Part shown: piece after piece, positions 11,334-51,823 of the stretch | Layout: each line of letters begins with the position of its first letter | How positions within the stretch are numbered: position 1 is the first letter of the stretch | DNA from: Synergistes sp. | GTDB lineage: Bacteria > Synergistota > Synergistia > Synergistales > Synergistaceae | NCBI GenBank assembly: GCA_017537925.1 | Contig: JAFYJW010000056.1 | Coordinates: 1 to 51,823, forward strand | Direction: 5' to 3' | DNA: 51,823 nucleotides | Program-made: the position numbers and the translations under genes | Notes under the pieces: generated by a model | Told to the model about the DNA's origin: nothing | The model's database searches: none | What the model saw: the letters and a program-made list of their open reading frames with translations, nothing else

Positions 11334-11408
11334 TGGAGCGGAAGACGGGATTTGAACCCGCGACCCCAACCTTGGCAAGGTTGTGCTCTACCCCTGAGCT
11401 ACTTCCGC
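11334..11408 (-). tRNA. tRNA-Gly (GCC), distal copy
   Basis: 75-nt cloverleaf on the minus strand with encoded CCA. The anticodon arm is CAACC-TTGCCAA-GGTTG, giving GCC. It is the last gene of the operon and is repeated 299 bp away at 11633. Confidence 0.95.
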
Positions 11409-11423
11409 GTCTGTCTCTTATAG

Positions 11424-11499
<76 letters not shown>

Positions 11500-11521
11500 G
11501 TCTCAGCCCGGACAGAAAAAG

Positions 11522-11598
<77 letters not shown>

Positions 11599-11632
11599 GT
11601 ACTAACTGATGTGCCGATGCGAGAGCAAAAAA

Positions 11633-11707
11633 TGGAGCGGAAGACGGGATTTGAACCCGCGACCCCAACCTTGGCAAGGTTGTGCTCTACCCCTGAGCTA
11701 CTTCCGC
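11633..11707 (-). tRNA. tRNA-Gly (GCC), proximal copy
   Basis: 75-nt cloverleaf with encoded CCA, same sequence as the copy at 11334; anticodon GCC. Confidence 0.95.
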
Positions 11708-11722
11708 GTCTGTCTCTTAAAA

Positions 11723-11798
<76 letters not shown>

Positions 11799-11820
11799 AT
11801 CCAAGCGGCGGACAGATAAG

Positions 11821-11897
<77 letters not shown>

Positions 11898-11911
11898 ACG
11901 CATCGTCCTTA

Positions 11912-11986
11912 TGGTGGGCGGGATAGGTTTCGAACCTACGACCCTCTGCGTGTAAGGCAGATGCTCTCCCGCTGAGCTACCCGCCC
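11912..11986 (-). tRNA. tRNA-Val (TAC)
   Basis: 75-nt cloverleaf with encoded CCA; anticodon arm TCTGC-CTTACAC-GCAGA gives TAC. It is the first gene of the operon, about 35 nt after the predicted transcription start. Confidence 0.95.
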
Positions 11987-47173: not shown

Positions 47174-47797
47174 ATGAGAATGAACAGCATCGAAGTAACC
47201 AGAGGAACAAATGAAGGAATAACAGCGGCTAAGGAAAGAACGATATCTTCGGAGAAAAAGACGCAGGGGCTTACGGTATCGCAGATAATGCTCGTAGCCG
47301 TGCTTCTTGCGGCGGGAGCAGTGCTGAAGTTTTTTGTAGGCTCGATATTTTCGGTCGGGATGAAGCCGAATTTCATCATAGCGATGTATTGCCTTGCGAT
47401 ACTGCTCGTTAAACCCAAGCTCAAAGAAGCGATAATAATAGGGCTGCTTGCCGGAGCAGTATGCCAGTTCTTCCCGGGCACGCCATATCTTAATTTCCCA
47501 AGCGAGCTTATAGGCGCCGTAGTGATGGCGCTTTTTGTAAAGGCCGGACGCAAAGCCGGAGGCTTCCTGATGCCGGCGATATCCACGTTCGTATCGACCG
47601 TCGCAAGCGGCGGTACATATGCGGCTCTGCTTTATTTGCTTTTCTTCTCGAAAGGCGCAGACGCCCCGGCGCCGCTTGCGGTTTTCCTGGGGATAATATT
47701 CGGTACGGCCACAATAAACGCTGTCATCGTCCAGCTGCTTTACATACCCGTAGCGACTGCGATGCATATGCGCGCCGATACCAAAAAGGAGAACTGA
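47174..47797 (+). CDS. Tryptophan-type ECF S component (TrpP-like)
   Basis: 207 aa, ATG with AAAGGA just upstream (a second ATG at 47180 is possible). After about 37 polar residues there are six predicted helices. Wording such as VGMKPNFIIAMYCLAILLVKPKLKEAIIIGLLAGAVCQFFPGTPYLNFP resembles TrpP of Firmicutes. It binds the substrate, tryptophan or a related indole compound, and works with the ECF module encoded next. The Trp T-box upstream supports this. The N-terminal 37 residues are long and unlike short TrpP proteins. Confidence 0.85.
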   Translation: MRMNSIEVTRGTNEGITAAKERTISSEKKTQGLTVSQIMLVAVLLAAGAVLKFFVGSIFSVGMKPNFIIAMYCLAILLVKPKLKEAIIIGLLAGAVCQFFPGTPYLNFPSELIGAVVMALFVKAGRKAGGFLMPAISTFVSTVASGGTYAALLYLLFFSKGADAPAPLAVFLGIIFGTATINAVIVQLLYIPVATAMHMRADTKKEN

Positions 47798-47803
47798 GCT
47801 GCC

Positions 47804-48640
47804 GTGATAAAGATAGAGAATCTTTCGTTTATATACGATGGCGGCAGGAAGAAAGCGCTGGATGACGTTTCCCTGCATGTGCCGAAAGGCGCTTTCTACG
47901 GCGTGGCAGGAGCCAGCTGCTCGGGCAAGAGCACTCTTCTGCGGGCTGTTGCCGGAATAGTGCCGCACTTCATGCGCGGAAGATTCTTTGGAACCGTGAC
48001 GGTCGCGGGCGTCGACACACTGTCCGCCGAACCGCAGCAACTGGCGCGCACGGCCGGTTTTGTCGGCGAGGATATCGAAAGCCAGCTGATATGTGAAACC
48101 GTAGAGGAAGAGATATATTTCGGACTTGAGAATTTTGCGCTGCCGCACGATGAGATCGAAGTGCGTGCGGCAGCCGCAATGGAGATGCTTTCCATAGCGT
48201 CTTTAAGGGGAAGGCGGATATCCTCGCTTTCCGGAGGGCAGAAGCAAAAAACCGCGCTTGCGGCGATGATAGCGCTTTCCCCGCAGATTCTTATACTTGA
48301 CAACCCGTCGGCCGAGCTTGACCCGGCCGCCACGGAAAACCTTTATTCCGCGCTGGCTGAGCTTAACGCGGGCGGCATGACGATAATTACTGCGGAGCAG
48401 AAGGCGGGCGTTCTCTGCCGCTTCGCTACGCATATGACGATACTTAAAGAGGGGCGCGCGCTGGCAAGCGCCCCGGTACAGCAGGTCATGGACGATACGG
48501 AGCTTCTCAGGGACGCGGGTATAATGCTGCCGCGCCGCGCAGAGCTGAGTTCGCGGCTCAAAGCGGAAGGCCTTTACAGCGGCGGGACCCCGCTTGATAT
48601 ACAGCAGGCCGCCGGGATGGTAAAAGGAATAATGCAATGA
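47804..48640 (+). CDS. ECF transporter ATPase 1 (EcfA-type)
   Basis: 278 aa, GTG start. Walker A is GASCSGKST (36-44), with Cys in place of the usual Asn/Gly residue. LSGGQKQKTALAA is the signature and ILILDNPSAELDP the Walker B region (with Asn in place of the usual catalytic Glu). It pairs with EcfA2. The stop overlaps the next gene as ATGA (48637-48640). Confidence 0.9.
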   Translation: MIKIENLSFIYDGGRKKALDDVSLHVPKGAFYGVAGASCSGKSTLLRAVAGIVPHFMRGRFFGTVTVAGVDTLSAEPQQLARTAGFVGEDIESQLICETVEEEIYFGLENFALPHDEIEVRAAAAMEMLSIASLRGRRISSLSGGQKQKTALAAMIALSPQILILDNPSAELDPAATENLYSALAELNAGGMTIITAEQKAGVLCRFATHMTILKEGRALASAPVQQVMDDTELLRDAGIMLPRRAELSSRLKAEGLYSGGTPLDIQQAAGMVKGIMQ

Positions 48641-49455
48641 ACAACATGATAGAATTCAGAAATGTATCCTACGGATATGAGGGCGTAACCCTTCTGAAAG
48701 ACGTTTCTTTCACTATACCGGAGGGCTCTTTCACTGCAATAGCGGGGGAGAACGGCGCCGGCAAATCAACGATCTGCCGTCTGTCAGCAGCTCTTTTCAG
48801 GCCGGTTAAAGGAGAGGTCATAAGCGGAGGGTTATGTACATCCAGAGAAAAAACCGCCCGTTTTGCCAAATTCACAGGCTTTCTTTTTCAGAATCCCGAC
48901 AGACAGATATGCCGTTCCACGGTCCGCGAGGAGATCGCTTTCGGTCTGGAATGTCTTGATCTCGGCACTGAAGAAAGAGAAAAAGCCGTTGACGGCATTT
49001 TAGAAGAATTCGGTTTTGAGCCTGACCGGGAGATATTCAGCATGGGGCGCGGCGAACGCCAGATGCTTGCGCTGGCCTCTGTGCTGGTCCGCAGGCCGAA
49101 GCTGCTTATTGCCGACGAACCGACGTCGGGACTTGACGCAGGCCAGTACCGCACCGCAGCGGAAAAGCTCAGAGAAGTCCACAAAAACGGAGCTACCGTG
49201 CTTATGGTAACGCACGACATGGAACTTGCGGAAGAACTTGCGGATGAAATGCTGGTGGCCGCTGCCGGAGAAATTAAAGCCCACGCTTCTGTTGAAGAGA
49301 TATTTTCGAACAGCGCGGTGATGGAAGGCGCGTCGATCTGCCGCCCAGAGATGCGCGAGCTTGCTCAGATGCTCGGCGGTGATTTTGCCGGCGACGCTTC
49401 CGTCGATGATATCGTAAATACGATAAAAGCGTCGAAAAGGAGTGGAAACAGATGA
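48637..49455 (+). CDS. ECF transporter ATPase 2 (EcfA'-type)
   Basis: 272 aa. Walker A GENGAGKST (37-45), Q-loop FLFQNPDRQICRSTVREEIAFG and Walker B LLIADEPTSGLD are present. The signature region reads SMGRGERQMLALAS rather than LSGGQ, a loss of the canonical motif. EcfA heterodimers often have one weak site. Overlaps the EcfT gene by 4 nt. Confidence 0.9.
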   Translation: MNNMIEFRNVSYGYEGVTLLKDVSFTIPEGSFTAIAGENGAGKSTICRLSAALFRPVKGEVISGGLCTSREKTARFAKFTGFLFQNPDRQICRSTVREEIAFGLECLDLGTEEREKAVDGILEEFGFEPDREIFSMGRGERQMLALASVLVRRPKLLIADEPTSGLDAGQYRTAAEKLREVHKNGATVLMVTHDMELAEELADEMLVAAAGEIKAHASVEEIFSNSAVMEGASICRPEMRELAQMLGGDFAGDASVDDIVNTIKASKRSGNR

Positions 49456-50210
49456 AAGGCCTTTTGGAATGCGACGGCGGCAAAGGCGTGATATATGCCG
49501 TCAATCCGTCGCTTAAAGTGATCATAGCTTTTGCTGCCGGTATGTCCGCATTTGCGGTAAAAAGTATCTCCGGGGCGCTGTTCATCGCGCTTTTTACAAT
49601 TGCTGCGGCGTACTTTTCCGGCCTGGGGAAGAAAGCCGTCTCCACGGCGCTCCTGATCGCCAAAATATCGATTCTGTTTTTTGTGATCCAGCTTTTGTGC
49701 GTGAGAAGGGGAAACCCGATTCTGAATCTCGGCTTTTTCAGCATAACGGACGCTGGCCTATATTATGCAGTTATGATGGCGTTGAAGCTTATAGCCGCGT
49801 CGCTGCCGCTCGTGCTTGTGCTTTCGGCGACAAAGCGCAGCGATCTCGCAAATTCTCTGGTGTATAACCTACACATTCCATTTAAATATGCTTTTGCGCT
49901 GACAACGACTCTTAATTTCATACCGGGGCTCGCCTCTGAAATGGCACAGGTAATGGAGGCGCAAAAAGCGCGCGGCGTAGATTTTGAGATCAAAAACCCG
50001 ATAAAAAAGGCCGCTCTTATAGTGCCTCTCTGTCTGCCTCTGATGCTGTCGTGCGTCCGACGCACGGAAAACAGCGCGATAGCGGCGCAGCTGCGCGGCT
50101 TTGAGCTCCGCGGGCGCGGCAGCGCTTATAAAAAGTATCCTCTCGGCATGAAGGATGCGATCGCCGTTCTTGCATGCGCAGTCGTACTGTCGGCCGCGTT
50201 TATCCTGTAA
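49452..50210 (+). CDS. ECF transporter transmembrane component EcfT
   Basis: 252 aa with about five predicted helices. Two coupling-helix motifs with Ala-Arg-Gly are seen, AQKARGVDFE and AAQLRGFELRG; they touch the two ATPases. It links the S component to energy. The TrpP-A-A'-T set is a dedicated (group I) ECF module rather than one shared by many S components. No clear terminator follows before the ompH promoter. Confidence 0.9.
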   Translation: MKGLLECDGGKGVIYAVNPSLKVIIAFAAGMSAFAVKSISGALFIALFTIAAAYFSGLGKKAVSTALLIAKISILFFVIQLLCVRRGNPILNLGFFSITDAGLYYAVMMALKLIAASLPLVLVLSATKRSDLANSLVYNLHIPFKYAFALTTTLNFIPGLASEMAQVMEAQKARGVDFEIKNPIKKAALIVPLCLPLMLSCVRRTENSAIAAQLRGFELRGRGSAYKKYPLGMKDAIAVLACAVVLSAAFIL

Positions 50211-50925: not shown

Positions 50926-51032
50926 TCTCTCTGTGCTATACTGCAGACGGAAGGATATATTTCGCATATCCGCGCGGCTATTGCCTTTGGAGGATATGCG
51001 CCGACCTTAAAAGCATTGTGGAGGTGTTTTTT

Positions 51033-51530
51033 GTGTCCGAGGAGCTCAGTTTAAAAATCGTGCAGGCGGATATACCGGAAGACAGCAACGTTATTGTAGG
51101 GCAGAGCCATTTTATAAAAACGGTCGAAGATCTGTATGAGGCGATGGTAACGTCCGCGCCGTGCATTGAATTCGGCATAGCGTTCTGCGAGGCGTCGGGA
51201 GACTGCCTTATCCGCCATGACGGAAACAATAAGGATATGGAGCAGGCGGCTGTCGAAAACGCGAAAAAGATAAATGCTGGACATGTCTTTGTCATCGCAA
51301 TGCGCGGAGGTTATCCGATCAATGTTCTGAACCGTATCAAGGATACGCAGGAAGTCTGCCGGATATTTGCTGCGACAGCAAATCCTCTGCAGATCGTCAT
51401 TGCTGAGAGCGCGCAGGGAAGAGGCGTGCTCGGGGTAATAGACGGCTTTGTGACAAAGGGCGTCGAGAAAGAGGAAGACGCGTCTTCGCGCGTAGCGCTC
51501 CTGCGCGATATTATCGGATATAAGAGATAG
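51033..51530 (+). CDS. Adenosine-specific kinase family protein
   Basis: 165 aa from the GTG at 51033, chosen because GGAGGTG (51020-51026) lies 6 nt upstream; a GTG at 51018 would add five residues. The sequence resembles the archaeal/bacterial adenosine-specific kinase family (PF04008): [11 protein letters not shown]-like start, [20 protein letters not shown] and RGVLGVIDG. It may phosphorylate adenosine to AMP in salvage; activity is inferred from similarity recalled without search. Terminator follows at 51561. Confidence 0.82.
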
Positions 51531-51560
51531 TAAGGTAGCGCATTATACGGATATCTGATA

Positions 51561-51589
51561 AAACGGCGGCGCATTTTGCCGCCGTTTTT
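51561..51589 (+). terminator. Terminator of the adenosine-kinase-like gene
   Basis: AAACGGCGGC and GCCGCCGTTT form a perfect 10-bp stem with a 7-nt loop and trailing Ts. Confidence 0.88.
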
Positions 51590-51633
51590 GCATGCCTCCT
51601 GCCGGCAATTTTAATGGAGATCGTTCCTGCTTA

Positions 51634-51662
51634 TTGTTAAAAAACGAATTTTGTGTTATTAT
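51634..51662 (+). promoter_or_regulatory. Promoter of the NifH-like gene leader
   Basis: TTGTTA (51634-51639), 17-bp spacer, TATTAT (51657-51662). The predicted start near 51669 gives a leader of about 127 nt. Confidence 0.7.
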
Positions 51663-51668
51663 TCACAA

Positions 51669-51795
51669 ATAGCAAAATATCGTCCTGATTTGGCAATGAT
51701 TCGTTCGGAGTCGGAAGGCGTGTGTTCTGCAAGGCATATCTGCGTTGTCGCCTTCCGCTTTCGGCGGAAGGCTTTTTTATTATGGGGGGCTGCAA
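51669..51795 (+). ncRNA. Attenuator-type leader before the NifH-like gene
   Basis: CGGAAGGCG (51712-51720) is perfectly complementary to CGCCTTCCG (51749-51757). The same right-hand segment GCCTTCCG (51750-51757) also pairs perfectly with CGGAAGGC (51765-51772), which is followed by TTTTTT (51773-51778). The two stems exclude each other: the first is an antiterminator, the second an intrinsic terminator 18 nt before the GTG. It could be a riboswitch, peptide attenuator or protein-bound leader; no known class was recognised. Confidence 0.7.
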
Positions 51796-51823
51796 GTGAT
51801 AAAAATTGCTATCTATGGCAAAG
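51796..51823 (+). CDS. NifH-like (nitrogenase iron protein family) ATPase, 5' end
   Basis: GTG start with GGGGGG at 51784-51789. The first nine codons read MIKIAIYGK, the conserved N-terminus of NifH/BchL/CfbC-type ATPases, which goes on to GGIGKST. The gene is cut by the window edge, so true nitrogenase reductase cannot be separated from nitrogenase-like relatives (methylthio-alkane reductase, cofactor F430 synthesis, chlorophyll synthesis). Confidence 0.65.

Follow-up and report, generated by a model that had tools for sequence, protein, structure and literature searches.

RESULTS

A leader with competing pairings precedes a nifH-like gene

The window, the whole 51,823-nt stretch of Synergistes sp. 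DNA analyzed here, ends in the start of a gene whose product belongs to the NifH/frxC family (PF00142, E 2.3e-87) and which continues on G000:C50:1-747. Farther upstream, positions 47174-50210 encode what appears to be a transporter set of the ECF type, with its membrane S component, T component, and two ATPases. Seven tRNA genes on the minus strand (11337-11986) look like a tandem duplication; three of the seven reappear 299 bases apart with identical scores. Positions 51018-51590, before the leader, contain a gene of the adenosine-specific kinase family (PF04008). A terminator-like hairpin (AAAACGGCGGC/GCCGCCGTTTTT) near 51562-51588 follows this gene, which suggests that the leader of the nifH-like gene begins its own transcription unit. 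The features of this leader are as follows:

51634-51662, plus strand: sigma-70-like promoter, TTGTTA (51634-51639), 17-nt spacer, TATTAT (51657-51662), with an extended TGTG before the -10 element
51680-51720, plus strand: conserved core (putative aptamer), 41 nt, found in 16 leaders from two phyla
51681-51683, plus strand: P1 5' strand CGU, pairing with 51718-51720
51691-51713, plus strand: predicted P2/P3 hairpin (RNAalifold consensus of 16 leaders)
51712-51720, plus strand: antiterminator 5' strand CGGAAGGCG, which includes the P1 3' strand (51718-51720)
51749-51757, plus strand: switching strand CGCCTTCCG, the antiterminator 3' strand, overlapping the terminator 5' arm
51750-51779, plus strand: intrinsic terminator, 9- to 10-bp stem, loop, and six U residues
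51750-51758 and 51764-51772: terminator arms GCCTTCCGC and GCGGAAGGC, followed by TTTTTT (51773-51778)
51784-51789, plus strand: Shine-Dalgarno sequence GGGGGG
51796-51823, plus strand: start of the NifH-like gene (GTG), cut by the contig end at 51823

An earlier note on this DNA had described the promoter and had proposed that 51749-51757 pairs with either an upstream or a downstream copy. Every one of these elements is present where it was placed. The promoter pattern TTG...TGTGNTA(T/A)NAT also lines up across most Synergistaceae leaders. Segments 51712-51720 and 51749-51757 form nine Watson-Crick pairs, and the latter, one base on, is the 5' arm of the intrinsic terminator (ΔG of -25.9 in a local fold). 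The three-way complementarity of 8-mers was reproduced by none of 2,000 dinucleotide-preserving shuffles; among 113-nt tiles of the plus strand of the window, only those over the leader locus carried the arrangement.

Predicted folds agree with the attenuation by mutually exclusive antiterminator and terminator that the earlier note had suggested. For a transcript ending before the terminator 3' arm, the RNAfold minimum is the antiterminator (-29.8 kcal/mol), while the full leader is predicted to adopt the terminator fold (-40.2 kcal/mol versus -34.7 kcal/mol with the antiterminator forced). The fold energy of the leader was matched by 1 of 200 shuffles (z = -3.15).

A 41-nt core is nearly invariant in two phyla

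When 61 related genomes were searched at the DNA level, the leader turned up in seven, all Synergistaceae, and the matches outlined a conserved block with sharp edges that lies outside the coding region. Pattern and profile searches raised the seven to nine Synergistaceae genomes (G000, G001, G002, G005, G010, G016, G021, G022, and G030) and added seven Bacillota genomes (G188, G189, G220, G344, G817, G1359, and G1360). The resulting 16 leaders share the core consensus UCGUnCUGAnUUGACGAUGAYnnGYUCRGAGUCRGAAGRCG. The earlier note had seen one pairing arm of this core and missed the core itself, which is the strongest evidence. Profile match L075 was left out of the 16-leader set, and weak matches (L058, L060, L061, L062, and L071-L074) were dropped as coding-like or as lacking a following terminator and operon. 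The core is rare in the Bacillota samples (four matches in 348 genomes and four in 397, some of them by chance); it was absent from the more distant nifHDK-like operons searched (L100-L115 and L125-L127), and none was found in viral contigs.

Conservation of the core far exceeds that of the genes behind it. Synergistaceae G001 and Clostridia G188 agree at 39 of 41 core positions, while their downstream NifD-like proteins share 59% identity; across G001 versus G188, G189, and G220, the corresponding ranges are 37 to 39 of 41 and 57 to 59%, and NifD-like proteins of the two phyla are 52 to 59% identical overall. Recent transfer therefore does not explain the conserved core. Outside the core, no similarity between the leaders of the two phyla is evident, which argues for strong selection on the core rather than on the whole leader.

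One way to account for such selection is a short leader peptide, MIxSESEG, translated from the core, with ribosome position setting attenuation. The AUG is invariant, M(I/T)xSES(E/Q)(G/D) can be read in 15 of the 16 leaders, and two variable core positions are synonymous third positions of Ser codons. At these third positions, however, only G and A occur, the two bases able to pair with U. The AUG has no Shine-Dalgarno sequence in any of the 16 leaders, an insertion in G344 breaks the frame, and the end of the peptide ranges from 10 codons to running into the next gene. Translation would also not account for the conserved stretch preceding the AUG or for the P1 pairs joining that stretch to the 3' side. 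We consider a leader peptide highly improbable.

Instead of an aptamer, the core might be a site bound by an RNA-binding protein acting in trans, an antiterminator or terminator protein of the LicT/SacY, PyrR, TRAP, or ANTAR type. Competing helices that overlap a terminator, together with a nearly invariant site, fit a protein target as well, and a binding protein would leave the same sequence pattern as a ligand; a switch bound to one gene set could also travel with its regulator. Against this, no common regulator gene was recognized beside the leaders in the stretches read, and the PyrR site model (RF00515) scores 15 bits (E 9.9) against a gathering threshold of 54. Near-invariance over some 40 nt across phyla exceeds the usual length of protein-binding leader sites. 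On balance, a protein target seems unlikely, but it is the chief rival to an aptamer.

Covariation supports a closing helix, P1

Covariation across homologous leaders, which the earlier note had set as its own test, is present and falls in the P1 helix only. The best covarying pairs in the 16-sequence alignment are 11-51 and 13-49, which flank the invariant pair 12-50 and with it make up P1. Pair 11-51 shows a double change from C-G to U-A, contributed by one clade of three genomes, and the inner pair 13-49 varies among U-G, U-A, and C-G. The outermost pair, 10-52, changes on both sides (U-A, A-U, G-U, or U-G in nine leaders) and is U-U in the other 7 of 16, including the window, where 3 bp remain. 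Neither the covariation score of P1 nor its number of paired cells was reached by any of 500 shuffles or by any slid control. Changes in that one clade also give pair 24-51 a score equal to that of 11-51, which means that relatedness adds to these scores; in the alignment it is the run of adjacent pairs that supports the predicted P1.

For the inner core, RNAalifold adds CU/AG, UGAC/GUCR, and UGA/UCR helices, a GA/GA internal loop, and a YnnGY loop. The predicted P2/P3 of the window reads UGGC/GUCG and UGA/UCG with loop UUCGU, its internal loop being AA/GA where the consensus has GA/GA. Changes in the inner helices occur on one side only. Pairing these invariant letters in either of two other ways is about equally compatible with the alignment, so that at least three pairings fit; since most core positions are invariant, the inner structure is not proved by the alignment, and we offer the inner fold as a proposal.

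Several alternatives were considered for the core. A local UCGU/ACGA hairpin as P1 is broken in several leaders, and UCGU/RCGA was adopted in its place. An H-type pseudoknot (CUGA/UCRG plus UGAY/GUCR) keeps all of its pairs, but these consist of letters that hardly vary, and its 1-nt loop appears sterically poor; it is retained as an alternative and was not adopted. A resemblance to the glutamine riboswitch or to a T-loop found no support in Rfam.

The terminator is constant and the antiterminator uneven

Each of the 16 leaders has an intrinsic terminator after the core and keeps the order core, terminator, operon. In G022, a G-to-A change in the core is matched by a C-to-U change in the terminator arm (CAGAAGG/CCUUCUG), a compensatory pair. 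Eight of the 16 leaders show antiterminator complementarity, taken over the region up to the terminator loop, with a shuffle P value of ≤0.06. In G005, G021, G189, G220, G344, G1359, and G1360, the simple 9-mer antiterminator is weak, and the platform there may differ. By sequence, then, the predicted mutually exclusive platform is clear in the window and in about half of the leaders and weak in the rest.

This unevenness could be counted toward a constitutive leader with an incidental terminator and incidental complementarity, its core being kept for RNA stability, as a small RNA, or as a DNA operator. Such an account would have to accommodate a three-way complementarity that no shuffle reproduced, a fixed order in all 16 leaders, and the covariation of P1; a DNA operator in particular would need neither RNA covariation nor a downstream terminator. 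Of all the explanations weighed, we regard this one as the least probable.

Downstream genes suggest a possible hydrogenase-type iron cofactor pathway

Every true copy of the core precedes one gene set, in three operon arrangements: nifH-like genes follow it in ten leaders, hydE in five, and an importer substrate-binding gene in G005. Elsewhere, nifHDK-like genes, hydE, and a FecBCD-type importer share one operon, sometimes with hydF; in G220 and G344, the order is hydE-nifH-nifD-nifK-SBP-fecCD-ABC-hydF.

The earlier note had called the window gene a member of the nitrogenase family. It belongs to a nitrogenase-like nifHDK operon linked to hydrogenase maturases (HydE, HydF, and HypDEF) and a FecBCD-type importer, and by NCBIfam cut-offs it is not a nitrogenase gene: the protein, lacking only its first few residues, scores 327.6 bits with the NCBIfam nifH equivalog against a cut-off of 394.35, and no downstream protein reached a nifD or nifK NCBIfam equivalog cut-off. 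By these cut-offs, the predicted downstream proteins are not nitrogenase.

HydE of the Bacillota carriers is a full equivalog match (562 bits; cut-off, 254.6). HydF homologs close the operon in L116 and L117, and the HydF model reaches 563 bits in L104; distant nifHDK-like operons without the core also carry hydF. The window genome's own operon has neither hydE nor hydF, and no HydG was named within the operon stretches examined. In the Bacillota loci L100-L107, L116, and L117, the operons of the nifHDK-like genes include hydE, hydF, and a FecBCD-type importer; those of L103-L107 have hypE-hypD-hypF between two nifHDK-like sets. These neighbors suggest a nitrogenase-like role in hydrogenase-type cofactor assembly. 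The Synergistaceae ABC ATPase (L032:5299-6402, on G000:C50) carries a C-terminal TM1266 domain (about 109 bits, above the cut-off), which is named for the iron-only hydrogenase system as a putative regulator; in the Bacillota homologs read, the protein is shorter by about 100 residues.

Given these neighbor genes, the controlled process looks like assembly or uptake of a hydrogenase-type iron cofactor rather than nitrogen fixation. Read most economically, the neighborhood would serve the import of a complex of iron or another metal and the building or delivery of a hydrogenase-type iron cofactor.

DISCUSSION

A candidate OFF switch

Together, these results lead us to favor, as the probable reading, a previously uncatalogued riboswitch-like transcription attenuator with a 41-nt aptamer domain that would act as an OFF switch. 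The element, its conservation, the P1 covariation, the competing pairings, and the constant terminator are computed here. They amount to a conserved structured leader domain before functionally related operons in distant taxa, covariation supporting RNA structure (in P1 only), and an expression platform with mutually exclusive structures, as expected of a riboswitch class. We infer that the signal is a directly bound small molecule or ion and that the polarity is OFF. The signal would be tied to the iron cofactor pathway (HydE, HydF, a NifHDK-like scaffold or reductase, and FecBCD-type import).

In the proposed mechanism, transcription would initiate near 51667, judging by the predicted promoter. 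The core, some 13 nt after the transcript start and closed by the short P1, is predicted to fold while emerging. When the signal is absent, the core would open and 51712-51720 would take 51749-51757, blocking the terminator so that the operon is transcribed. When the signal is present, P1 and the folded core would be stabilized and the CGGAAGGCG strand held, so that the terminator forms and transcription halts before the operon, which is the logic of feedback. The P1 3' strand sits inside the antiterminator strand, and the latter in turn pairs with the 5' arm of the terminator, so that three structures (aptamer, antiterminator, and terminator) compete, as is usual in OFF riboswitches. For the copy in the window, the aptamer fold is energetically costly relative to the alternatives and would thus need a ligand.

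Attenuation of this class is a known mechanism. The RNA family itself appears undescribed in Rfam 15 and in the open-access papers searched: a search of the leader at gathering thresholds and leniently returned no family, none in Rfam release 15 rising above its gathering threshold, in keeping with the earlier note's failure to match a named riboswitch. Neither the RNA family nor a link between nitrogenase-like proteins and HydE, HydF, or HypDEF is described in those open-access papers. As a tentative extension, the leaders may represent a new riboswitch class whose ligand is a metal species or an intermediate from a hydrogenase-type iron cofactor pathway not yet described, one that joins a NifHDK-like system, an imported iron complex, and HydE, HydF, or HypDEF; we give this fuller account distinctly less than an even chance. 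The RNA is in any case defined, testable, and only about 41 nt long, and its ligand would reveal the function of the nitrogenase-like operon. If the signal is an iron cofactor species, the RNA would sense the status of an organometallic cofactor, and nitrogenase-like proteins would seem to have a so far undescribed role in hydrogenase cofactor assembly.

Comparison with known systems

The leader attenuators controlled by PyrR, LicT/SacY, and ANTAR proteins resemble this one in that antiterminator and terminator are mutually exclusive; they differ in that the PyrR model falls far below threshold here and no common regulator gene was seen. ANTAR and RAT sites likewise appear to differ from this leader. 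The nifV motif RNA of Geobacter, listed as a weak riboswitch candidate (PMC11109978), is likewise a candidate structured RNA ahead of a nitrogenase-cofactor gene (PMC11109978). It is known from four Geobacter representatives and concerns another gene in other taxa, and its Shine-Dalgarno sequence lies within the structure, so that control is thought to be translational (PMC11109978). The transcription-terminating OFF riboswitches for purines and SAM (SAM-I) have cores unlike that of this leader, whose sequence and fold match no Rfam family, but they share its plan: an aptamer near the 5' end with the genes of a single pathway downstream, a P1 3' strand common to the antiterminator, and a terminator as the alternative.
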